From NCBI RefSeq assembly GCF_003977755.1, contig NZ_RQWN01000003.1:496001-560000 (forward strand): DNA of 64,000 nt, in the 5' to 3' direction. Both the position numbers and the translations under genes were made by a program. This stretch comes from Haloterrigena salifodinae (GTDB lineage: Archaea > Halobacteriota > Halobacteria > Halobacteriales > Natrialbaceae). Under the pieces are notes generated by a model. That model saw nothing but the letters and a program-made list of their open reading frames with translations, ran no database searches and was not told the origin of the DNA. Of this stretch, positions 35,987-48,282 are shown in pieces. The stretch's first letter is position 1; every line of letters begins with the position of its first letter.

Positions 35987-38407
35987 ATGACCGACTGGCG
36001 CTCGATCTTCGGCCACAAACGTCCCTACGACGAGCAGGTCGACGGCATCGAGACCGCGATCGACGCTGCTCGAGACGGCGGCTACTCCGTCGTCGAGGGC
36101 GCCTGTGGCACCGGAAAGACGATGATCGCGCTGACCGCGGGGGTCGACCTCGTGCGCGATCCCGACACCGACTACGAGCGCGTGTTCGTGCTCACGAGCG
36201 TCAAACAGCAACTCCACCAGTTCGAGGAAGACCTCGAGACGATCAACGAGAACCTCCCCGACGACTGGAACCCCGTTTCGGGGCTCACCCTCGTCGGAAA
36301 GGCCGACGTCTGCCCGTACAACCGCGCCGGCGCCGGCGGGATCGACGACGGCAACGTCTACGACCGCTGTGAGACCCTGCGGGATCGCACCCGCGACCTC
36401 ACCGGCGAGGGCGGCGACACGACCGCCGGGAGCCTGACCGCACAGGCCCGCAGCCAGCAGATAGGACTGGCGGACAGCGGCAGGCAGGGCGGCGGGCCGC
36501 GCCTTCTCCAGACGGCCGGCGAGACCGCGCCGTACTCGCCCGGCATCCCGGAGTACAGCGACGGCGGCCCCGTCGACGTCTCGACGGAGTACTGCCCGTT
36601 CTACGCCCAGTATCTCGAGGACCTGCCGGAGGAGGGCAGCGACGGCGATGCAGTGGAAGCGGTCCCCTACGACTTCACCGAGGCGGGGATGATCACCCCA
36701 AAGGATCTCGTCGCCCGCTCGGTCGCCCACGGCACCTGTCCGCACTCGGTGATGGGCGCCGTGCTCGGCCACGTCGAGGTCGTCATCGGGAACTACTACC
36801 ACGCGTTCGATCCCCGGACGACCGGCTCCTTTACCGGCGCCCTGCTCGACGACTCCACGTTCGTCGTCTGCGACGAGGCCCACATGTTAGAGCCTCGCGT
36901 CCGTGATCTGGTCAGCGACGGGGTCGCTGATCGGACCCTTCGGGACGCCGAGACCGAACTCTCGCGAGTCATCCAACCGATCAAGTTCGAGCGCGAGGGA
37001 CGGCGCGCCGAGGGCGGCTCCAAGACGGCCGACGCCGACCTCGTCCGCGCGGAACTCAACGACAGCGATGTCTCCTACGACGAACTCGAGCAGACCCTCG
37101 AGTTCGTTCGCGACCTCCGGAGCGAGCTCGACCGCCGGGTCACGGCGCACCTCGACCGGAAACACAGGGGGTGGCAGTCGAACCTCACCGACCTCTCGGA
37201 CGACGAGATTCCGCTGCGCGACCCCGCGGAACCGGCAGAGGACGAACTCACGGCCTGGGCCCGCGAGGCGGGGTACGGCGACGCCGACTGGGTCCGCGCC
37301 GAGGCCGTCGGCGCCGTCGTCGAGCGCGTTCTGAACGAAGCCGAGGACGAGGACCGCACCCGCGCCGCACCCGCCGTCGGCCGCGTCTTGGGCGAGTGGT
37401 ACCGGCGGGGCCACACCGACTACTTCCGCGAGATCGAACTCGAGCGCACCTGGGACGACACCGAACCCGCCGACTCGTGGCGCCGAGCCTACAACGCTCG
37501 CATGGCCCTGCACAACTGCGTCCCCAGCGACGCCATCGGCGAGCGCCTCGGCATGTTCGGCGGCGGCATCCTCATGAGCGCGACCTTGGAGCCCATGGAC
37601 GCGTTCACCGAGGTGACCGGACTGGACTACCTCGAGCGCGAGGAAGACCGGCCGGTCGTCGAACGCCGCTACGGCCTGCACTTCCCCGAGGAGAACCGCG
37701 AGAGCTTCGCGGTCGCGGCGCCGAAATACACCTACGATAACCGCGGCCGTCCGGGAGAGGAGAGCGAGGCACAACGCGCCTCGAGTGGAGCGGGCGATAG
37801 CCCGCTGAACCCCACGCGTCGACAGTACGTCGACGCCGTCGCCAAGGTCGGCCGACTGCCGGGCAACGTCCTCGTCGGGATGCCGAGCTACGCCGAGGCC
37901 GACTGGCTCGCCGGCGTCCTGGAGGAGCGACTCGAGAAACCCGTCCTGCTCGACGCCGCCAGCGACGACGAGACGACGCAGGCGCTCAAACGCGAGTTCT
38001 TCGACGGCGAGGGGAAGGTTCTCGTGACTAGCCTCCGCGGAACCCTGACCGAGGGTGTCGACTACAGCGGCGACCGACTCGCGGCCGCGGTGGTCTGTGG
38101 CGTCCCCATCGTCAACACCTCGAGTCCGCGCACGAAGGCCGTCCGCCGAGCCTACGACGACGAGTTCGGCGACGGCTTCACCTACGCGCTGACGATCCCC
38201 GCGGTCCGGAAGGCTCGGCAGGCCATCGGCCGCGTCATTCGGAGCCCCGAGGACGTTGGCGTCCGCGTGCTCTTGGACGAGCGCTACGCTCGCGATAGCT
38301 GGGACTCCGTGCGTCCGTACCTGCCCGACGACGGCGAGTTCCAGCCCGTCAGTCCGGACATGCTCGACGTCGGCCTCGATCGGTTCAAGAGTCGACTCGA
38401 ACAGTAG
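35987..38407 (+). CDS. XPD/Rad3-DinG family ATP-dependent DNA helicase
   Basis: An 806-residue superfamily 2 helicase. Walker A is GACGTGKTMIAL (residues 38-49), the DEAH box CDEAHM is near 295-300, and the motif V/VI segment with GVDYSGD and AIGRVIRSPEDVGVRVLLDER is near the C-terminus. Four cysteines in the expected iron-sulfur region (C109, C128, C203, C251) could hold a 4Fe-4S cluster as in XPD, though the spacing is wide. A C-terminal conserved tail lacks known repair-partner motifs. The start MTDWRSIF at 35987 is preferred over an upstream in-frame ATG at 35888 because family proteins begin near the GHKRPYDEQV segment. A role in DNA repair is likely. Confidence 0.88.
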   Translation: MTDWRSIFGHKRPYDEQVDGIETAIDAARDGGYSVVEGACGTGKTMIALTAGVDLVRDPDTDYERVFVLTSVKQQLHQFEEDLETINENLPDDWNPVSGLTLVGKADVCPYNRAGAGGIDDGNVYDRCETLRDRTRDLTGEGGDTTAGSLTAQARSQQIGLADSGRQGGGPRLLQTAGETAPYSPGIPEYSDGGPVDVSTEYCPFYAQYLEDLPEEGSDGDAVEAVPYDFTEAGMITPKDLVARSVAHGTCPHSVMGAVLGHVEVVIGNYYHAFDPRTTGSFTGALLDDSTFVVCDEAHMLEPRVRDLVSDGVADRTLRDAETELSRVIQPIKFEREGRRAEGGSKTADADLVRAELNDSDVSYDELEQTLEFVRDLRSELDRRVTAHLDRKHRGWQSNLTDLSDDEIPLRDPAEPAEDELTAWAREAGYGDADWVRAEAVGAVVERVLNEAEDEDRTRAAPAVGRVLGEWYRRGHTDYFREIELERTWDDTEPADSWRRAYNARMALHNCVPSDAIGERLGMFGGGILMSATLEPMDAFTEVTGLDYLEREEDRPVVERRYGLHFPEENRESFAVAAPKYTYDNRGRPGEESEAQRASSGAGDSPLNPTRRQYVDAVAKVGRLPGNVLVGMPSYAEADWLAGVLEERLEKPVLLDAASDDETTQALKREFFDGEGKVLVTSLRGTLTEGVDYSGDRLAAAVVCGVPIVNTSSPRTKAVRRAYDDEFGDGFTYALTIPAVRKARQAIGRVIRSPEDVGVRVLLDERYARDSWDSVRPYLPDDGEFQPVSPDMLDVGLDRFKSRLEQ

Positions 38408-38432
38408 CCGGACCGACGCTCGACTCGCGGCC

Positions 38433-38816
38433 TCACTCCGACTCGGAGTCCGAGCGGGGGTCGGACGCGTTGGAGTCGAACTCGAGATCGGACTCGGAGC
38501 CGGATCCGGACCGATCCAGCGTGATCGTCGTCGTTGTCGTCGTCGTCTCGGCGTACAGCGAGTACAGGAGAATCGTGAAGCCCGCGGCGATGCAACTGCT
38601 CTGGATTGCGACGCCGAGCGCGACGTTGTCGGCGCCGACGTGGGCGAGCGCGCCGCCGATCGAGCCGGCGACGATGACGCTAAAGCCGATGGCAACCGCT
38701 CGTAACGCTGCCGACCCCGTTCGTCGAAAGGCACGGTAGGCCAGCGCGGCGACGGCGCCGCCGGTGACGAACGTCGCCGTGTTCGCGGCCGCGATGAGGA
38801 GCGTGTATTCGTCCAT
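38433..38816 (-). CDS. Small polytopic membrane protein, haloarchaeal
   Basis: A 127-residue protein with three membrane helices (about 5-28, 36-56 and 66-87) and a Ser/Asp/Glu-rich C-terminal tail with a run of threonines (residues 90-97). The region before position 38817 in the open frame is not protein-like, so the ATG at 38816 (MDEYTLLIAAANTATFV) is chosen. Similar three-helix proteins are widespread in haloarchaea but have no known function. It is convergent with the helicase gene and divergent from the AI-2E permease. Confidence 0.65.
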   Translation of the reverse strand: MDEYTLLIAAANTATFVTGGAVAALAYRAFRRTGSAALRAVAIGFSVIVAGSIGGALAHVGADNVALGVAIQSSCIAAGFTILLYSLYAETTTTTTTITLDRSGSGSESDLEFDSNASDPRSDSESE

Positions 38817-39094
38817 AGCTACGTGCAAGCACTCGGCGTCCTCGAAACGATTGCGATCGTCGCCGTTCCGTCGATCGCTCCGAGCGACTCGGTAGTACGG
38901 TGTCCGCGGCTCTTGTACTTCAGTGACGCCGCCTATTCTCACTCGGAAAGAACGGTGCGAAGACGTTCGGTGAATTGCGTCGGTGCCGATCGCTCGAGGT
39001 CGACCGCTGCTGGCGACGCGTCGGTCGCGGCCCCGTCCGTTTTCGACGTTACGCTAATCCGAAAGATTTTGTCACACCGGTGAGAGTCACGGCT

Positions 39095-40207
39095 GTGACA
39101 GCGAACGCGACTGCGGACGACCGACGGTACGTGCTCGCGGGTATCGTCGCGCTACTCGGCCTCGTTACCGGTGCGATTCTGCTCGACGTCCTCGGGACGA
39201 TCATGTTTGCGCTGACGGTCGCCTACGTCCTGTTGCCCGTCCAGGGCTGGCTCCACCGGCGGGGCCTCTCGGAGTGGCTGTCGGCCGTCGCGGCGACCCT
39301 GCTCGGCTTCCTCGGAACCGTCGCCGTCTTCGCGCCGCTGGTCGTGGCGCTCTACGTCCGCTTCGACCAGATCCAGACCGTCCTCGAAGAGATTCCCGAC
39401 GAGTTTCCCGTCGCGGTCGCGGACTACACCTACACCGTCGACGTCGCCGAAGTCAGTTCGCTCGCGCTCAACTTTTTGAGCGACACGGCCGTCTCCTTCG
39501 CCGCGGCGCTGCCCGTGCTGGGGATCAAGTTCGCGCTGTTCGTCATTCTGCTGTTCGCACTGTTGCTCGAGGCCGACGCCGCCGGTCGCGCGGCCATCGC
39601 GCCGGTTCCCCACGGCTACCGCGACATCGTCTACGCGCTCGCGATGCGGGCCCGCGAGACGCTGTACGCGATCTACGTCCTGCAGTTCGCGACCTCGGTG
39701 GCGACGCTCGTCATCGCCTACCCGCTGTTCTGGCTGCTGGGCTACGACGCGGCGTTCACGATCGCCTTCTTCGCGGCGATACTGCAGTTCATCCCGATGA
39801 TCGGCCCCAGTCTGCTAATCGCGCCGATCGCGCTCTACCACGTCGCCGTCGGCGAACTCGTCGCCGGTCTCCTCGTCGGCGTCCTCGGAATGGCCCTCAT
39901 CGCCTGGCTTCCCGACATCGTCGTCCGACCGCGACTGGCCCGCCGTTCGGCCGGCCTCCCCGGGAGCCTCTACTTCGTCGGCTTCACCGGCGGACTGTTC
40001 ACGCTGGGCGCCATCGGCGTCGTCGTCGGGCCGCTGATCGTCGCCGTCTTCGTCGAGGCCGTCGACCTGCTGGCCGACGAGGTCAACGGCGACGCGACGC
40101 TCGCTGACCTTCTCGAGGACGACCTCGATGAGTCGTCGCCGACGGCGTCCGAGGCGGATGCGGAGACCAGTTTCGACGAATCGAAGACGCGGACCGCCGA
40201 CGACTGA
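39095..40207 (+). CDS. AI-2E family transporter (PerM/UPF0118 permease)
   Basis: A 370-residue polytopic protein with about eight membrane helices. The pattern of N-terminal helix pair (YVLAGIVALLGLVTGAILLD), the large central loop and the C-terminal block FIPMIGPSLLIAPIALYHVA followed by LPDIVVRPRLARRSAGLPGS and TLGAIGVVVGPLIVAVFVEA matches the AI-2E transporter family. The start is a GTG at 39095; another GTG at 39080 is also possible. The substrate is unknown (family members move quorum signals, sodium or other solutes). It ends 124 bp before the convergent halocin gene. Confidence 0.85.
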   Translation: MTANATADDRRYVLAGIVALLGLVTGAILLDVLGTIMFALTVAYVLLPVQGWLHRRGLSEWLSAVAATLLGFLGTVAVFAPLVVALYVRFDQIQTVLEEIPDEFPVAVADYTYTVDVAEVSSLALNFLSDTAVSFAAALPVLGIKFALFVILLFALLLEADAAGRAAIAPVPHGYRDIVYALAMRARETLYAIYVLQFATSVATLVIAYPLFWLLGYDAAFTIAFFAAILQFIPMIGPSLLIAPIALYHVAVGELVAGLLVGVLGMALIAWLPDIVVRPRLARRSAGLPGSLYFVGFTGGLFTLGAIGVVVGPLIVAVFVEAVDLLADEVNGDATLADLLEDDLDESSPTASEADAETSFDESKTRTADD

Positions 40208-40331
40208 TCGAACCGACTGGCCTGGTTCGTCTCGCTACCGGACGGCCGTTGACGTCGCGTCGTCCGCCCCGGAAGGGAGCGGTGATTTCGCTCGCTTCGG
40301 TTCCGGACTCGTTCTCACTGTCGCGAACCGT

Positions 40332-41183
40332 CTAACAGAGTCCCGCTCGGTCACAGGCCTCTTCAGCGACCGCGTCACCGCAGCCGCTGTATTCGTCGGC
40401 GACGGTGCAGACGATTTCGACGAAGCCCAGACAGCTGAGTCCCGCAACGGGAATCGTGATACCGAGGAATCCGCAGATGAATCCGCCGGCGGCACTACAC
40501 CCGATGGTACAGATTTGACCTGCGGCGTACTGACAGGCGCTACAGCTCGTAACTTCGATATCCGCTGGAGTGACAGCAGTGCCCGCGGAGCTGATCTGAT
40601 CCGGGTCGAGTTCACTATTGCGTGCTTCTCGGATCGCGTCCGTATCGACGGAAATGACCGTCGCTCCGTCGGACGTGGCCGCAGGCTGTGGCCCGTTGGC
40701 TTCCCCTCCGCTCGTGGGCTCGAACCGGTGAACTTCGTTGAGGACACCATCGTCGGTTTTGTAGTAGTAATCGAGACTGGCGACTTCGATCTCACCGGTA
40801 TCGGGATTGCGACCCACGACGATGCTGCCCTCGTCGGCGTCCGCCGGGTTCTCGAGATCGTACTGGACGACTTCTCGAGCGAAGTCCTCGCCTCGGGCGT
40901 AGCCGGCGACGACGCCATCGGCGTCGGTACGGACCTGTGCGCTGTCGGATCGAGCGCGCTGTGCGAGTTCGCGGAACGCGGGCGTCGCTGCGAGCTTGCG
41001 AGCGAGATCCCGTTTCTCAGCGCCGGTTAGCAGTTTCGCTTCCTCAGCCTGTGAGAGGTCACCTGCCGCGGCAGCCATTCCCGTCGACCCGGCAGCGAAT
41101 AACCCGGCGGCACCGACGGTTTTGAGAACGTTTCGACGGTTAATTCCATCGCTTCCATCCAGTTTGTTATTATCTTCTTTCAT
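40332..41183 (-). CDS. halC8: Halocin C8-like preproprotein (bacteriocin plus immunity domain)
   Basis: A 283-residue secreted peptide antibiotic precursor. Residues 16-40 have a twin-arginine signal (RRNVLKTVGAAGLFAAG). The last 76 residues (208-283; nucleotides 40562-40335) begin DIEVTSC and contain ten cysteines (positions 7, 10, 18, 22, 30, 44, 52, 61, 70 and 76 of this part), separated by hydrophobic GITIPVAG-type stretches. Length, Tat signal, cleavage position and cysteine pattern match halocin C8 of Natrinema sp. AS7092, where the same 283-residue ProC8 releases halocin and the N-terminal part HalI gives immunity. Cleavage here would be after VTPA. Residue differences from the published peptide, as I recall it, are few. 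A TATA-like element supports the start. Confidence 0.93.
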   Translation of the reverse strand: MKEDNNKLDGSDGINRRNVLKTVGAAGLFAAGSTGMAAAAGDLSQAEEAKLLTGAEKRDLARKLAATPAFRELAQRARSDSAQVRTDADGVVAGYARGEDFAREVVQYDLENPADADEGSIVVGRNPDTGEIEVASLDYYYKTDDGVLNEVHRFEPTSGGEANGPQPAATSDGATVISVDTDAIREARNSELDPDQISSAGTAVTPADIEVTSCSACQYAAGQICTIGCSAAGGFICGFLGITIPVAGLSCLGFVEIVCTVADEYSGCGDAVAEEACDRAGLC

Positions 41184-41196
41184 CGCTACAATACAC

Positions 41197-41206
41197 GGTA
41201 TAATGG
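41197..41206 (-). promoter_or_regulatory. TATA element of the halocin gene
   Basis: Read on the minus strand, CCATTATACC is an archaeal TATA element with its centre about 20 bp before the ATG at 41183. An A/T-rich stretch lies just upstream. This spacing suggests a short-leader or leaderless message. Confidence 0.55.
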
Positions 41207-41403
41207 ATGAAATATTGATAGTAACTTCTGCTCACAAAGCGTCGTTCGCTGTCCGTGCAGTCGATCCTCGTCGTGCAGCGGGTGGCCACTGTGTGCTCCG
41301 TCGGAGAATAGCGACCGCGGTACAGTCGTACCGCACCTCTTTCGAGAACCTCGTTCGTCGACGATCAGATACTTGTCTGTCGATCGGATGTGGACATCGA
41401 GAA

Positions 41404-42213
41404 TCAGTCCGTTTTGATCCTGTTTTCCGCTCGCTTGAACGACGCGTACTTTTCTTTCATCCACCGTTCGATACCGGGTACCGGATCGTCGAATCGCACG
41501 ACACCGTAGATCCCGCTTCCGTCGTTGTATGCGATAATCATGTATTTGTTCTCACTGAAACAAATTCCGTACGACGGATACTCGTCAACAACGATCATCT
41601 GTACCGTCTCCGACCGCTGTAACGCGTCGAACTCGGCCGGTTCTGCCTGCCCTATCGTTTCGAAACATTCTGCAGGACCGACGATTTCGCTATCCGTAGT
41701 CGACGCTCGTTGCGCGAGTACGGACGCGTATTTCGGGTTGATCGCCGGAGCGCATAGCCGCAGTCGATCGGCGTTTTCGATGAACGCAGTAAACTCGTTG
41801 ACGGCTTCGAACGGCACATCGAATCCGTTTACCGCGATTTCGCCCGATGACAGAGCGTCTACGTCGACCGAAAATTTTCGGGGTACTTTCGAGAGAAACG
41901 ATCCGATTTTCGCCGCGGATTCGATGTCCTCTAACAGGTCAGTGAAACTCGACAGAACGAACCGGCCTACTGGCGTAATCTCGTATACCTTTCCGCTTCG
42001 TTCTGTGACCCAGTCCCGTTCCTGTAACTCACGGAGATTGCGTCTGAGCGTCGTTCGATGAACATCTACCTTCTTTTCTAACTCGGACTGTGCGTGCGGT
42101 GATTCCGAGAGCACCTGGAGGATTCGAAGTCGGTCCTGTGTTCCAGTCAGGAATTGTACGTCTCTGTACCCGTTGTTCTCGACTCCGTGTTTGTGTTCGT
42201 TTTCTGATTTCAT
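41404..42213 (-). CDS. Winged-helix transcriptional regulator, possible halocin regulator
   Basis: A 269-residue regulator. Residues 20-85 form a winged helix (TGTQDRLRILQVLSESPHAQ, then VDVHRTTLRRNLRELQERDW, and VTPVGRF-type wing), followed by a 180-residue effector domain with a pattern known from archaeal methanogen-type regulators (FilR1/DUF1724-like): VDVDALSSGEIAVNG, RLRLCAPAINPKY and VQMIVVDEYPSYGICFSENK. It lies 220 bp upstream of the halocin gene on the same strand and is codon- and base-wise less GC-rich than the housekeeping genes. Control of halocin production is inferred from place alone. Confidence 0.82.
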   Translation of the reverse strand: MKSENEHKHGVENNGYRDVQFLTGTQDRLRILQVLSESPHAQSELEKKVDVHRTTLRRNLRELQERDWVTERSGKVYEITPVGRFVLSSFTDLLEDIESAAKIGSFLSKVPRKFSVDVDALSSGEIAVNGFDVPFEAVNEFTAFIENADRLRLCAPAINPKYASVLAQRASTTDSEIVGPAECFETIGQAEPAEFDALQRSETVQMIVVDEYPSYGICFSENKYMIIAYNDGSGIYGVVRFDDPVPGIERWMKEKYASFKRAENRIKTD

Positions 42214-42461
42214 GCGCGACGATTACGGTCATTGTATTTGCTCCGTCACCGATTCTCTATTATCTATCCAGTCCGGTTCCGGTGACTGTCACGATCTAAC
42301 TTGTCCGCATAGTTTTAATACACTATCAGATGTTATAGTTCTTTCCCGGGTAATAATAGAGCAAAAAAGTATGCCACGTGGCCAACGGTCGTTCTCGTTC
42401 CGATCGCCGTCACGTGATCAGTGCGACTGAAATGAAGGAGTGGAAATACCATTAAATTAAT

Positions 42462-42476
42462 AACTTATAGCAACGG
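42462..42476 (+). promoter_or_regulatory. TATA element of the 70-residue membrane protein gene
   Basis: AATAACTTATAGC (around 42460-42472) lies about 20 bp before the ATG at 42487, with an A-rich run just before it. It gives a leaderless or short-leader start. The surrounding 130 bp are AT-rich for this genome. Confidence 0.45.
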
Positions 42477-42486
42477 AAATACAAAT

Positions 42487-42699
42487 ATGAATCGTCGAAC
42501 GTCGCTTCCGGTTGCGATTCTCGTTACTAGTGTCGCCGTCCTCTGTATGCTAGTGCTTGCGACCGGATTTCTCGACCCCGACTGGATGCTCGACACGATC
42601 GGACTCATACCGTATCTCGGCGCGATAGTCGTGATGTTCGTCTGTTTCATTCTGTCGTTCTATTTTGACATGGTCGGTACGCTTCGTCGAGAACTGTAA
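42487..42699 (+). CDS. Small two-helix membrane protein in halocin region
   Basis: A 70-residue protein with two hydrophobic helices (LPVAILVTSVAVLCMLVLAT, about 7-26, and IGLIPYLGAIVVMFVCFILS, about 38-57). MNRRT at the start is basic; the end is charged (LRREL). No family recognised. It lies between the regulator and the ABC-2-like protein, and ends 8 bp before the convergent end of the latter. Its location hints at a part in halocin export, folding or protection, without direct evidence. Confidence 0.6.
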   Translation: MNRRTSLPVAILVTSVAVLCMLVLATGFLDPDWMLDTIGLIPYLGAIVVMFVCFILSFYFDMVGTLRREL

Positions 42700-42706
42700 T
42701 CGCCGC

Positions 42707-44311
42707 TCACTCGAGCGTGTACTGGTTGAACCGTCGCATCGCTGCCCGATAACAGCCGTAGCCGACGCCGCCCTCTAGAGCGAGCCAGACTAGTACGGAC
42801 GCGGCCCAACCGATGGTCGATACCGCACTGTCGCCTAACAGTAGCCGTGAACCGACGACGGCGCCGCTCCCGAGCGTCCCGAGCGACAGCACGACCATCG
42901 AGTAGATCGCAATCGCCGACAGACTCGGTGGAACCACGTTCCGCCGACGGCTGACTCGTATCGCGCCGAATCGGGGAAACTGCATACCGAGGGCGAGCGC
43001 GATCCCAATCGCAGCCGAACCGTGGACGCCGGCCCAGAGCGCCAGTCCGACTGCGATCGGCAGCGCGTATGTCGCGGCGCTGACCGCGCCGACGGTCGCG
43101 ACGAGCAGCGGGACGCCGACGATCGCGCTCATCAGCGCCGTGCCACCCACGAACTGGTGTCCGTCGACCGGCGACGCCACCGTCGCCGGTAGCGCCGCCC
43201 CGTCGTCGCCGAGCGGGTTCAGCGTCAGGCAGCCGCCGACGAACCACGAGCCGAGGAGACCGACGGCAATCGGCAGCAGCGAGCGTCCGGCCGACGTCTG
43301 TGCCAGATCGACCACCAGCCACACGCCGACGAGCAGCGGGAGGCCGAGATGCGAGACGCGCGTCAGGTCGCGTTTCGCTCGTTGTACCGATCGCCACGCG
43401 ACGTACCGCGTCGGTCGGTCGATCCGTCCTCGCAGTCGGGCGAACGGACGCGGTTGCTCACTCGTGGCCGGCGACCGTCGAACATCACCGTCCATCCCCA
43501 CGCCGTCGGTCCAGAGCTGCATCGCGAACCGCTCGGTCACCGATCCGCCTGCGAGGGCGACCACGAGTGTTCCGAGCACTGCTCCGACGACCCGATACGG
43601 GGACGCCGCGATCGGCGTCCCGACGACGAAGAGATCGGCGTACCAACTCGTCGGCAGTCTCGCGGCGAGTTCCAGGGTTGTGCTCAGTTTTGCCATCACA
43701 CCGGCGGCGGCGATCGCTCCGAGAAGGCCGAGTCCGCCGGCCACGTGCGCCGTCTTCCAGCGGGCACGGCGACTCAAGACGGCGACCACGGCGCCGACCG
43801 CGTAGCCACAGCAGACGCTGCTCGTCAGAAACAGGACGGTGGCGACCGGAACCGTCGCAATCGGAACGGCCGTGTCGGCACCGGTGACGAATCCGACACC
43901 GAGGATCCCGACGGGGAGGGCGGCGAACGCCAGCGCGCGGAGTTCTTCCGCGACGAGGACGCCGATCGTCACCGCTGACGGTCGCACGCTCGTCAGTAAC
44001 AGCGCCGGATTGTCGATATCTACGGTCCGTATCGCCGCTCGCTGCCCGAATAGCGCGGTACTCGACAGCCAGAGCAGCGTCACGAGCAGTCCGACGATCG
44101 GCGGCAGTGACGGATCGGCTCGAGCCGCGAGTTCGGCCGTTCGGCTCTGGACGACCAGCGTCATCAGTCCGAGATATAGCGTCCCGAAGAGCCCGGCTCC
44201 CGCGAGCAACGCGAGTCGAATCCGATCCCGTTTGAACGTCCGCCAATCTCGACGCACTTCGGTCCGGCCGATCCGTAGTCCGTGGGCGAGCGTCCGAAGC
44301 CGTCGTATCAT
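42707..44311 (-). CDS. Polytopic ABC-2-like membrane protein
   Basis: A 534-residue protein with at least ten hydrophobic helices. The beginning (LRIGRTEVRRDWRTFKRDRI, a basic stretch and then a helix) and the pattern of two halves with long connecting loop (about 260-310) resemble archaeal ABC-2 type permeases of export systems. There is no ATP-binding domain and no ATPase gene next to it, so either the partner is encoded elsewhere or the protein works on its own. It starts one base after the stop of the 74-residue gene. Location beside halocin C8 suggests an exporter or immunity component; this is inference. Confidence 0.75.
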   Translation of the reverse strand: MIRRLRTLAHGLRIGRTEVRRDWRTFKRDRIRLALLAGAGLFGTLYLGLMTLVVQSRTAELAARADPSLPPIVGLLVTLLWLSSTALFGQRAAIRTVDIDNPALLLTSVRPSAVTIGVLVAEELRALAFAALPVGILGVGFVTGADTAVPIATVPVATVLFLTSSVCCGYAVGAVVAVLSRRARWKTAHVAGGLGLLGAIAAAGVMAKLSTTLELAARLPTSWYADLFVVGTPIAASPYRVVGAVLGTLVVALAGGSVTERFAMQLWTDGVGMDGDVRRSPATSEQPRPFARLRGRIDRPTRYVAWRSVQRAKRDLTRVSHLGLPLLVGVWLVVDLAQTSAGRSLLPIAVGLLGSWFVGGCLTLNPLGDDGAALPATVASPVDGHQFVGGTALMSAIVGVPLLVATVGAVSAATYALPIAVGLALWAGVHGSAAIGIALALGMQFPRFGAIRVSRRRNVVPPSLSAIAIYSMVVLSLGTLGSGAVVGSRLLLGDSAVSTIGWAASVLVWLALEGGVGYGCYRAAMRRFNQYTLE

Positions 44312-44312
44312 C

Positions 44313-44537
44313 TCAGTCGGACTCGTTCGCCGAATCGTTGTACTTCAGTCCTCCGTAATAAATTGCGCCTAACACAATACTAGTACCGATCGCTTCGAGA
44401 AAGGCGGGCTCTGACCCCGTATACAGGTCGTACGCGATACTTACTGCGAAGAGGACGACTACCGCGGCAATCGCGTGTAATATGTGGTTCTCTTTCAGTT
44501 GTTGATTCAATCGTTCGAACGCGGATGCGTCTGTCAT
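44313..44537 (-). CDS. 74-residue two-helix membrane protein
   Basis: A small protein with a polar N-terminus (MTDASAFERLNQQLKENHIL), two hydrophobic helices (HAIAAVVVLFAVSIAYDLYT and LEAIGTSIVLGAIYYGGLKY) and an acidic end. Its TGA is separated by one base from the ATG of the polytopic protein, so the two are coupled in one message. A short peptide before a membrane transporter may aid assembly. No family recognised. Confidence 0.6.
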   Translation of the reverse strand: MTDASAFERLNQQLKENHILHAIAAVVVLFAVSIAYDLYTGSEPAFLEAIGTSIVLGAIYYGGLKYNDSANESD

Positions 44538-44954
44538 ATTGTTCGATGGATAGTCCGCCGTCTTCTGTCTCTCAGCCGTTGGACGGTCGACGATCTCGCT
44601 TCGGCTGGTCTCGAGAGGCGATACGACGCTTGGAGGGCGACGTTCCGCCAGCCGGTTTCGCACCTCAATCTAAAATTCACTTCTATCCCAACATATACTT
44701 TTTGTCGATCAATACAGAACGAACGTTCCGAAGTAGGGATCGAATCGGGCGAACGAACTTCTTTTCTTGGGTTTTACTACTCGTAGGCGGGTCGTTCGTC
44801 CTGCGTTCCGAGTCCGCCGAACGGTGCTCTATCGTTTCCCACCGGGCCGCTTTTCCGGGTCACCATCGTCGAAATTGTCCCTTACAGTCGCGTCCGAACG
44901 TGGCAACTCCGGACGACCTCCCCATCTTTTTACGCTGGTCGTCGTCCGTTCCCT
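44538..44954. other. Intergenic region upstream of the halocin-associated operon
   Basis: The 417-bp gap separates divergent genes. It has an AT-rich patch (about 44670-44720) and a TATA element with four T's (CATCTTTTTACG, around 44922-44933) for the gene at 44955. I see no convincing coding frame or known RNA. A lost exporter ATPase gene is not evident. Confidence 0.45.
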
Positions 44955-45608
44955 ATGACTTCCGGCCGAACGCTCGCCAACGCGATCGTCGGCGCCATCG
45001 TCGGCGTCGTGCTTTCATTCATCCCGCTCTCGCCCGTTATCGGCGGCGGTACCGCGGGTTTTCTCGAGGGATCGAACGCCAGACAGGGAGCGGTCGCCGG
45101 CGCGCTCGCGGGGGCGATCGCGTTCCTCCCGGTCGCCGGCTTCGCGATGCTCGGACTCGGAGTCCTCGGGTTCGGAATGGGGGTCGTCGCGGCGCCGATC
45201 GAGGGCTTCGCGATCGCGGCGCTGGCGATCGTCGGGTTCGGACTGATCCTGTTCCTCTACACCGTCGGCCTGTCGCTGCTCGGCGGCTACCTCGGCGCGC
45301 TGCTCGCCCGCGAGTATCCCGATCAACGGCGCCAGGCCCAGGAGACGATCGGCCTCTCCTCGGACCGTTCAGAGCGATCCCGCTCGCTCGGCGCAACCGG
45401 CTCGCGAGGCACTCGACCGGACGTGAGGGTGGATAGCGACCGCGGCCGGCGCGATCACGAACGCGACCGCGAACGCGGACGGTTCGGAACACGCGAGTCC
45501 GCGTCGGAGGCAGGGACGGAGACGAGCCCAGAAGCTGACTCCGACCTCGACTCCGACTCGAGTGCGTCGTCCGACGGTGACCGGGATACCGAATCCGAGC
45601 GGTTCTGA
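44955..45608 (+). CDS. DUF5518 membrane protein
   Basis: A 217-residue protein. Residues 1-120 form about four membrane helices rich in glycine and alanine (ANAIVGAIVGVVLSFIPLSP, GGTAGFLEG...QGAVAGALAGAIAFLPV and later LGGYLGALLARE), which is the DUF5518 pattern common in haloarchaea. The C-terminal 85 residues are a charged, disordered tail with Asp/Ser/Arg repeats. The function is unknown. A TATA element (about 44922-44933) is 27 bp before the ATG, which fits a leaderless start. Confidence 0.82.
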   Translation: MTSGRTLANAIVGAIVGVVLSFIPLSPVIGGGTAGFLEGSNARQGAVAGALAGAIAFLPVAGFAMLGLGVLGFGMGVVAAPIEGFAIAALAIVGFGLILFLYTVGLSLLGGYLGALLAREYPDQRRQAQETIGLSSDRSERSRSLGATGSRGTRPDVRVDSDRGRRDHERDRERGRFGTRESASEAGTETSPEADSDLDSDSSASSDGDRDTESERF

Positions 45609-45712
45609 CGGAGCGGACTCGAGAACGCGGTACAGCCGGCGAGGGTGCCGAGCCCCGCTCCGGCCGTCGCCGCGAGGACCTGGCGGCGTCACTCTTTCCC
45701 GTTCCCGACCGG

Positions 45713-47035
45713 TCACTCGTAGCGGAGCGCGTCGATCGGATCCGTCCGCGCCGCCCGCCAGGCCGGGTACAGGCCCGCGAAGATCCCGACGAGCACGCCG
45801 ACGACGATCGCCAGCACGACGTACTCGAGGGGGTAGACCAGCGGGAGGTCGATATACCACGCGCCCAGGTAGCCCGCGACGAGGCCCAACAGCGTGCCGA
45901 GGATCGCGCCGATGACGCCTAAAATCACCGCTTCGGCCAGAAACAGCCCCAGGATCTCCCGGTTCTGGGCCCCGACGGCTTTCATGATCCCGATCTCGCG
46001 GGTCCGTTCGGTCACCGAGACTAGCATGATGTTCGCGATGCCGACCGAGCCCACGACCAGCGAAATCGCCGCGATGCCGACGATGAAGTTCTGGAGCAGG
46101 TTCAATACGTCCTCGAGTTGCTGAAGTAACTCCGCGCTCGTCTGCAGTCGCACCTCGAGGCCGTCGTCGAGCAACGCGCTGGCGTCTGACTCCTCGCTCT
46201 CGAGGTAGCTCCGCGCGCTCTCTTTCGCCTGCTCGATCGCTGCGTCGTCGGTCGACTCCGCCTCGACGACGATCGCGAGGAACAGCGCGTCGTTCGCGTC
46301 GCTCGAGTTCCCGTCGGTCTCGGTTTCGTTCCCGTCGCTGCCGTTGTTCGCCCCGCCGGAGTCGCCGCCCGGGAACGCCGCGGCGGCGTCCTCCGTGTAG
46401 AAGGGGTCGGTCGGGACATAGACCCGCGGTGACGGCTCGAACCCTTCGAACGGGCTCAGTCCCTCGGAGCTCTCGGTGATGCCGACGACGGTGACGGTCG
46501 TCCGCTGGCCGCCCTGCAGAGCGACGGTCAACTCATCGCCGACCGAGACGTCCTCCTCGAACTGGCCGGCGACGGCCGGGTTGATGACGGCCTCGCGCTC
46601 GCCCTGTTCGAACTGCCGGCCCTCCGCGAGCCTGTTCTCCCGGATATACGACGGCCCGGCGGCTACGAGAGCGTCGCTCTGCGGCGATATCTCGCCCTCG
46701 TAGGCGAGGGCCTGCGTGGATAACGGCATGTAGCCGTAGGCCGCCTCGACCCCCTCTCGCTGTTCGATTTCGTCGAGATCGTCCTCGCTGAAGACGGGTT
46801 GGGCGCCCGCGAGCGGGCCGCCCTCGGTCTCGGGCTCGGCGGCCCAGCCGTAGACGTTGCGACGGTCGTCGGGGCTGACGTCTCCGAGTACCCCCTCCTG
46901 CAAGCTCGCGCCGAGCGTGACGAAGGCGATCACCGCCGCGATGCCGATCACGATGCCCAGCGTCGTCAGCGACGACCGCAGTTTGTGACCGCGGATCGAC
47001 CGCCACGCCAGGCGCAGACTCTCGATCGCCCGCAT
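45713..47035 (-). CDS. MacB/FtsX-type ABC transporter permease
   Basis: A 440-residue protein of the MacB-like fold with four membrane helices: one near residue 20-45 (SSLTTLGIVIGIAAVIAFVT), then a large extracytoplasmic domain (residues 50-310), and three close together at about 315-435 (FIVGIAAISLVVGSVGIANI, LGVIGAILGTLLGLVAGYLG and YVVLAIVVGVLVGIFAGLYP). It ends PAWRAARTDPIDALRYE, a conserved family tail. The extracellular domain contains an acidic, Asn/Asp-rich loop (about 220-250). The start overlaps the stop of the ATPase gene by one base. The cargo is not known; such systems export peptides, macrolides or lipoproteins, or signal through their outer domain. Confidence 0.9.
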   Translation of the reverse strand: MRAIESLRLAWRSIRGHKLRSSLTTLGIVIGIAAVIAFVTLGASLQEGVLGDVSPDDRRNVYGWAAEPETEGGPLAGAQPVFSEDDLDEIEQREGVEAAYGYMPLSTQALAYEGEISPQSDALVAAGPSYIRENRLAEGRQFEQGEREAVINPAVAGQFEEDVSVGDELTVALQGGQRTTVTVVGITESSEGLSPFEGFEPSPRVYVPTDPFYTEDAAAAFPGGDSGGANNGSDGNETETDGNSSDANDALFLAIVVEAESTDDAAIEQAKESARSYLESEESDASALLDDGLEVRLQTSAELLQQLEDVLNLLQNFIVGIAAISLVVGSVGIANIMLVSVTERTREIGIMKAVGAQNREILGLFLAEAVILGVIGAILGTLLGLVAGYLGAWYIDLPLVYPLEYVVLAIVVGVLVGIFAGLYPAWRAARTDPIDALRYE

Positions 47036-47838
47036 CAGTCGTCCGCTCCAGAATCGGTTCGGTCCCGACTCGAGGGGTCGTCCGCCTGCTGGCCCTCGCT
47101 CTCGTCGAGGATCTCGATCCGTTCGATCTTCCCGTCGAGCAGGTGGACGATCCGCTCGGCGCGTTCGGCGACGTGGCGTTCGTGGGTGACGACGATCATC
47201 GTCGTTCCGGCCTCGTGGAACTCCCCGAAGAGGTCGAGGATGTCGGCCTCCGTGTCGGTGTCTAAGTTGCCCGAGGGTTCGTCGGCCAGCACGATGGCCG
47301 GATCGTTGACCAGCGCCCGCGCGAGCGCGACCCGCTGGCGCTGCCCGCCGGAGAGTTCGTTCGGGAGGTGATCGGTCCGATCCGCGAGGCCGACCCGCTC
47401 GAGGAGTTCGCGGGCCCGCTCGCAGCGCCGTTCGCGATCGACGTTCTGGAACAGCTGCGGGAGCGCGACGTTCTCCGTGGCGGTCAGCCGAGGCATGAGG
47501 TTGAACGTCTGGAAGACGAAGCCGACTGTGGTTCCCCTGAGGGTCGTCCGTTCGCGGTCGGTCAGCGCCGCTACGTCCTCGCCGTCGACGACGACGGTGC
47601 CGGCCGTCGGCGTGTCCAGACAGCCCACGAGGTTCATTAGCGTCGACTTCCCCGAGCCGCTCGGTCCCATGATCGCGGTGTAGGACCCGCGCGGAATCTC
47701 GAGGGAGACGCCGTCTAACGCGTGGACCGGCTCACCGAGCTGGTAGGTCTTACGGACGTCCTCGAGGGCCACCGCCGTGCCGGCGTCGGCGTTGGTGGCG
47801 TCAGCGCCGGCGGCGCCCCCGGTTCCCGATGTCGCCAT
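47035..47838 (-). CDS. ABC transporter ATP-binding protein, LolD/MacB type
   Basis: A 267-residue ATPase partner of the permease downstream. It has Walker A GPSGSGKSTLMNLVG, the Q-loop within TVGFVFQTFNLMPRLTATEN, signature LSGGQRQRVALARAL, Walker B AIVLADEPSGNLD and the H-loop in IVVTHERHVAERAERIVHLL. The first 25 residues are an acidic haloarchaeal extension. The LolD family usually couples to FtsX-like permeases as found here. The stop overlaps the permease start (TGATG). Confidence 0.93.
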   Translation of the reverse strand: MATSGTGGAAGADATNADAGTAVALEDVRKTYQLGEPVHALDGVSLEIPRGSYTAIMGPSGSGKSTLMNLVGCLDTPTAGTVVVDGEDVAALTDRERTTLRGTTVGFVFQTFNLMPRLTATENVALPQLFQNVDRERRCERARELLERVGLADRTDHLPNELSGGQRQRVALARALVNDPAIVLADEPSGNLDTDTEADILDLFGEFHEAGTTMIVVTHERHVAERAERIVHLLDGKIERIEILDESEGQQADDPSSRDRTDSGADD

Positions 47839-47874
47839 AGGCGGTCGACCACGGCCCGACCGAAAAAGCTAGTA

Positions 47875-48282
47875 CTAGCGGCGGATTGCGTCCACGAACT
47901 CGAGCCAGCGCTCGTGATCGTCCAGCGTCGCCGAGCGGGCCTCGGCGCCGAACCGCTCGCGTCGGAGGCTCTTGAGGGCGTTTCGTGCGCGGTCGATCCC
48001 GACGATCGTCTCGACGAGCTCCTCGCCTTCCTCGCGATCGATGGGGGCCGACTCGAGGCGCTCGACGAGGCGTTTCCGCTCGGCTGCCAGCTCCCGCTCG
48101 GTCTCCTGGACCAGCGGCTTCGCGTCGTCGGGGATGCCTTCGACTTTCCGGGTCTCGATGAGGAACTCCTCGAGGGGAAGGTCGTCGTCGCCAACGGTGA
48201 TCGTCTCGGGGAGTTCTTGCCCGATCGTCGCGCTCTGGCGATTGACGCGCTCGATGAGGTCGCGTCGTTCAGCGGCGTTCAT
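47875..48282 (-). CDS. Conserved haloarchaeal helical protein (DUF5788-like)
   Basis: A 135-residue highly charged and mainly helical protein. The start NAAERRDLIERVNRQSATIG followed by PETITVGDDDLPLEEFLIET resembles the DUF5788 family of haloarchaea, whose function is unknown. A conserved ERLESAPIDREEGEELVETI segment and a C-terminal ARSATLDDHERWLEFVDAI follow. No membrane segment. It is 36 bp upstream of the LolD-like ATPase gene on the same strand. Confidence 0.65.
   Translation of the reverse strand: MNAAERRDLIERVNRQSATIGQELPETITVGDDDLPLEEFLIETRKVEGIPDDAKPLVQETERELAAERKRLVERLESAPIDREEGEELVETIVGIDRARNALKSLRRERFGAEARSATLDDHERWLEFVDAIRR

Follow-up and report, generated by a model that had tools for sequence, protein, structure and literature searches.

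An intact ortholog of proC8, the gene for the halocin C8 precursor, lies on the minus strand at positions 40332..41183 of the window (the whole 64,000-nucleotide stretch of Haloterrigena salifodinae DNA analyzed here). It encodes a 283-aa precursor that starts with ATG, and its stop codon occupies 40332-40334; the initial annotation had named no strand, and on the plus strand the same coordinates contain internal stops. We took a longer ORF on the plus strand, 40128-41030, to be a shadow ORF. The minus-strand ORF is not a chance ORF, because curated HMMs match both of its halves above cut-off. PF22862 (Hac8_like_N) matches the HalI-type immunity domain at residues 51-156 (40716..41033, minus strand) with an E value of 6e-41 and 139.8 bits, against a gathering score of 27, and the NCBIfam model TIGR04449 (halocin_C8_dom) matches residues 214-283 with an E value of 5.6e-15 and 56.1 bits, against a curated cut-off of 24. 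Residues 1-40 (41064..41183, minus strand) form a Tat-type signal region, assigned by its NRRNVLK motif. The mature halocin C8 part, assigned from the sequence and TIGR04449, spans residues 208-283 (40335..40562, minus strand) and contains ten cysteines; a candidate cleavage site falls between VTPA and DIEV, that is, between residues 207 and 208, and the 76-residue peptide has a calculated mass of 7521.5 Da with its cysteines reduced. A conserved upstream element, TTACTATCAATATT (41184..41224, minus strand), located ~27 to 41 nt before the ATG, is kept in the H. salina (L007) and Natrinema altunense (L008) loci and is promoter-like, with a putative TATA region. No Rfam elements were found in 38000-48000.

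ProC8 has been described as a 283-aa Tat-exported precursor that gives a 76-aa peptide and HalI (PMC11509114); going by the titles of two references in that paper, halocin C8 production and immunity come from a single gene (ref. 16), and a helix-loop-helix at the HalI N terminus is essential for immunity (ref. 22). The size of HalI is given there as 243 aa, which disagrees with 283 minus 76 (207). A recent paper notes that the protease responsible for HalC8 cleavage has yet to be identified (PMC12893001). In the AlphaFold2 (AF2) model of the window protein, the HalI domain is predicted to open with a helix-loop-helix (residues 54-79; 40947..41024, minus strand), with helices at 54-65 and 68-79 and a mean pLDDT of ~80 to 90. 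It is followed by a five-stranded sheet (91-154), and block means of pLDDT are ~70 to 92 over most of the HalI part; confidence is low for the toxin core. A Foldseek comparison of the model with PDB folds gave no match below an E value of 0.3, and a sequence search of solved structures with the full precursor gave no match.

Orthologs at the same locus were found in H. salina JCM 13891 (L007, 95% identity), in a further genome of the same genus, G297 (L075, 94%), and in N. altunense AJ2 (L008, 81%), and a more distant relative occupies the same genomic place in G092 (L083, 61%). Besides the window genome, three intact genomes from two genera carry the gene in this position, as does a fourth that is more distant. 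The H. salina locus has the same gene order on both sides, and its ProC8 differs at 13 residues, mostly in the signal region and linker. Genes for halC8 encoding 283 aa have been listed from several Natrinema and Haloterrigena, and the N. altunense gene belongs to those with 90% similarity or more to P83716 (PMC11509114); we used N. altunense AJ2 as a stand-in for the published P83716. Compared in this way, the window protein and ProC8 of Natrinema sp. AS7092 (UniProt P83716) are alike in their 283-aa length, Tat signal, HalI domain, PTPA/VTPA-D cleavage context, and 76-aa peptide with ten cysteines at the same spacing; they are unlike in that overall identity to the stand-in is 81%, that 8/76 mature residues differ from it (D3E, I4V, G6S, K11Q, V17I, L32F, K67E, and N71D), and that the window peptide is more acidic. 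Against both H. salina and G297, a single mature residue of the 76 differs, G6S. The contrast between DIEVTSC and DIDITGC, to which the initial annotation had drawn attention, is real, because the N. altunense peptide has DIDITGC and D3E, I4V, and G6S are all found against it.

Substitution rates against N. altunense were lowest for the core (dN 0.048, dS 0.471; dN/dS 0.10), compared with the HalI domain (dN 0.098, dS 0.348) and the linker (dN 0.246, dS 0.545), so the mature peptide is the most conserved segment; these rates indicate strong purifying selection on it. In an alignment of 17 C8-like precursors, the ten core cysteines and both Tat arginines are invariant. The initial annotation had described a 283-residue protein with a Tat signal, and the minus-strand ORF and its NRRNVLK motif bear this out. 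The 76-residue, ten-cysteine C-terminal part and the VTPA site it reported are seen in the sequence, the latter as a candidate. Its reading of the gene as a halocin C8-type precursor fused to a HalI-type domain agrees with both HMMs, full-length orthology, synteny, the ten-cysteine scaffold, and the predicted helix-loop-helix; the C-terminal part has a significant TIGR04449 match, and alignment with homologues, which the annotation had suggested as a check, shows the cysteine spacing kept.

The C8 family was reportedly expanded by a survey, Makarova 2019. Across 394 genomes of the class Halobacteria, TIGR04449 was found in 43 and PF22862 in 23, so the two models do not always recognize both core and N-terminal domain; the precursors at L072 and L078 match PF22862 only weakly. 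The TIGR04449 precursors at L072, L078, L088, L077, and L105 share with the window gene a Tat signal, a C-terminal cysteine-rich C8-like core, and an adjoining permease, and at the first three of these a helix-turn-helix (HTH) gene lies beside the C8-like gene, as in the window. Unlike the window gene, all five have a weak or absent PF22862 match and a different gene order, and those aligned share ~30% identity with it; the L077 core has 12 cysteines, against ten in the window.

In the window, proC8 stands together with four further genes between an AI-2E-family transporter on the left (38975..40207, plus strand) and a DUF5518 protein on the right (44955..45608, plus strand). These four encode an HTH regulator, identified by matches to the HVO_A0261 N-terminal and FilR1 middle domains (41404..42213, minus strand); a 70-aa small membrane protein with two hydrophobic segments, tm70 (42487..42699, plus strand); a putative ABC-type efflux permease of 534 aa (42707..44311, minus strand), so named from its fold match and, by its phyletic linkage and adjacency to C8-like genes, a candidate second immunity or export component; and, directly upstream of the permease, a second small membrane protein of 74 aa counted from an internal ATG (44313..44537, minus strand). 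Empty sites were examined in 14 related genomes at the MacB locus. In 13/14, proC8, the HTH gene, and the permease are absent and the AI-2E gene lies near the DUF5518 gene, its usual neighbor at empty sites, or near MacB; the remaining genome (L209) yielded no AI-2E gene. In G182, 97 bp separate the AI-2E gene from the DUF5518 gene, and tm70 persists at the site in L200, L201, and L202. The MacB-type ABC pair at 45713-47838 was rejected as a halocin exporter, since its permease occurs in 119/125 family genomes regardless of halocin.

Within the family, HTH orthologs (at least 50% identity) are confined to the five genomes that have a full-length proC8, and permease orthologs (at least 58%) to exactly 7/125, the ones with proC8 or its remnant; joint loss of toxin, HTH gene, and permease from a single locus does not count as independent evidence. 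HTH homologues adjoin C8-like genes in L072, L073, L078, L088, L089, and L103, and tm70 homologues lie near C8-like genes in L085, L086, L116, L118, and L123, those in L116 and L118 being tm70-like genes of H. salina and G297 beside a C8-like precursor. A role for tm70 as a dedicated immunity protein was rejected as unproven, since across 195 genomes the majority of its homologues are not near a C8 core. The window genome itself has a second strong tm70-like gene at G000:C1:1526997-1527209, near which a C8-like gene was not found.

The 534-aa permease has no match in Pfam or NCBIfam. Its AF2 model is all-helical with a mean pLDDT of 61 (medium confidence), and the one significant PDB match of this medium-confidence model is a mycobacterial ABC efflux pump, 8k1n (E value 9e-4, probability 1.00, 18% identity), whose fold is alike at a TM-score of only 0.47. 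No ABC ATPase adjoins the permease within the window; an ABC ATPase lies within 1.5 kb of 18/23 background permease loci and beside the permease in L077 and L105. Permease homologues directly adjoin C8-like genes in L072, L073, L078, L088, L077, and L105, and many C8-like loci are without a nearby permease. In a maximum-likelihood permease tree, the halocin-adjacent members need 4 label changes, 3 of them forced by well-supported branches, and in a precursor-core tree the permease-adjacent cores need 5, with 4 forced; the exact counts are soft because some background permease rows are incomplete and the core tree has few columns. In the permease tree, homologues next to C8-like genes thus fall in three or more separate places. 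A permease profile finds ~2.4 copies per C8-positive genome, so that adjacency to a C8-like gene by chance should be rare, by our estimate <1% per locus, and a C8 core was found within 1.5 kb of 0/23 background permease loci.

Two relatives carry decayed versions of the locus. N. gari JCM 14663 (L009) has lost the HTH gene and the first 97 proC8 codons, and so lacks the helix-loop-helix of HalI; in G034:C41 (L107) the HTH gene is missing and proC8 is reduced to codons ~84 to 165. Both keep tm70 and a 534-codon permease free of stops and indels, with a permease dN/dS of 0.24 between the two and 0.33 to 0.39 against N. altunense. The window genome also holds a second C8-type remnant (G000:C2:554500-554703; L070:8486-8890, minus strand), which has lost its N-terminal half and has tryptophan in place of one core cysteine; a downstream gene for a 122-aa membrane protein is kept beside the broken toxin. 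With halocin genes decayed in two relatives and at a second locus of the same genome, halocin loss is frequent.

The observed domain content, orthology, selection, cysteine conservation, cassette structure, and linkage are best explained, very probably in our judgment, by an intact, vertically inherited Haloterrigena halocin C8 precursor that works by the published ProC8 mechanism. For the Haloterrigena strain we infer export, cleavage, killing, and immunity by analogy: ProC8 would leave the cell already folded, by the Tat route, and be cleaved between residues 207 and 208, freeing a disulfide-stapled 76-residue peptide that would kill related haloarchaea; the HalI domain at the N terminus, also exported, would shield the producer. 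The HTH protein may control proC8, and the 534-aa permease may clear peptide that reaches the producer's membrane, or aid its export, as a layer beside HalI; argued from genomic association, control by the HTH protein and a permease acting in a second immunity or export layer make a tentative proposal, at somewhat less than an even chance.

The initial annotation had gone further, to a diverged mature peptide and a candidate for a new variant whose target range might differ. Eight differences from the N. altunense peptide, with two lysines lost and a net charge of -8 versus -4, would suit a shifted range; the changes are mostly conservative, however, the core is the slowest-evolving part of the precursor, and the peptides of H. 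salina and G297 differ from that of the window at one residue only. The proposed variant is thus unsupported, and we consider a shifted range improbable. On sequence grounds the eight differences are ordinary ortholog divergence in an ordinary peptide: the annotation was right as a description and overstated the case for a variant. The window gene adds one ortholog of the known halocin C8, and such orthologs are already in public genomes. We think it just as unlikely that the locus is cryptic, its intact frame no longer expressed or its peptide weakened by the private G6S. Among close orthologs, only this genome has that substitution, which adjoins the first cysteine, and the decay of halocin genes in two relatives and at the second locus of this genome fits such a course, but the full reading frame, conserved upstream element, purifying selection, and intact regulator argue against a cryptic locus.

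Whether proC8 acts with its neighbors is a separate matter. The permease, small membrane proteins, and HTH regulator have about an even chance of being passengers of a variable insertion site, with proC8 alone making and resisting halocin. Published work assigns both functions to one gene (title of ref. 16 in PMC11509114), and the predominance of tm70-like genes away from halocins, the number of C8-like loci without a nearby permease, and the commonness of the permease superfamily also favor the passenger reading; against it stand the repeated pairing of permease and halocin genes, seen in three or more branches, and the survival of an intact, constrained permease where the toxin has been lost. 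It is possible, if doubtful, that halocin C8 is not a one-gene system and belongs to a cassette that is mobile or has been lost repeatedly; within it, the HTH protein would control the toxin and a repeatedly recruited permease would form a second immunity or export layer, kept as resistance after toxin loss. The cassette matters more than the peptide, which is one more ortholog of the best-known archaeal bacteriocin. A cassette would predict partner genes for production and resistance and would explain why neighboring species differ in toxin carriage; toxin-free strains may still resist, which would alter the single-gene picture of halocin C8 immunity.

Other C8-like loci held further architectures. 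A stand-alone HalI-like protein of ~146 aa, which lacks both a signal peptide and a toxin part, is encoded at G148:C2:186731-187006 (L067 ORF 1435-1899), ~14 kb from a C8-like gene on the same contig, and is possibly an orphan immunity gene. Two large Tat-type proteins of ~670 to 700 aa (L066 ORF 424-2445, G093:C86; L060 ORF 394-2517, G128:C1) combine a HalI-like domain with a C8-like cysteine-rich C terminus, an extended precursor type. A membrane-protein family of ~125 aa starts within ~100 bp downstream of C8-like genes at five loci (L072:8859-9242, L073:9336-9719, L078:8554-8937, L088:8553-8918, and L070:8015-8383) and is a candidate immunity protein. Another small membrane protein, with two helices, lies close downstream of C8-like genes in L086 (8721-8930), L094 (5944-6159), L115 (11177-11380), L116 (8103-8384), and L118 (7881-8138), beginning 6 bp past the stop codon in L094 and 17 bp past it in L086.
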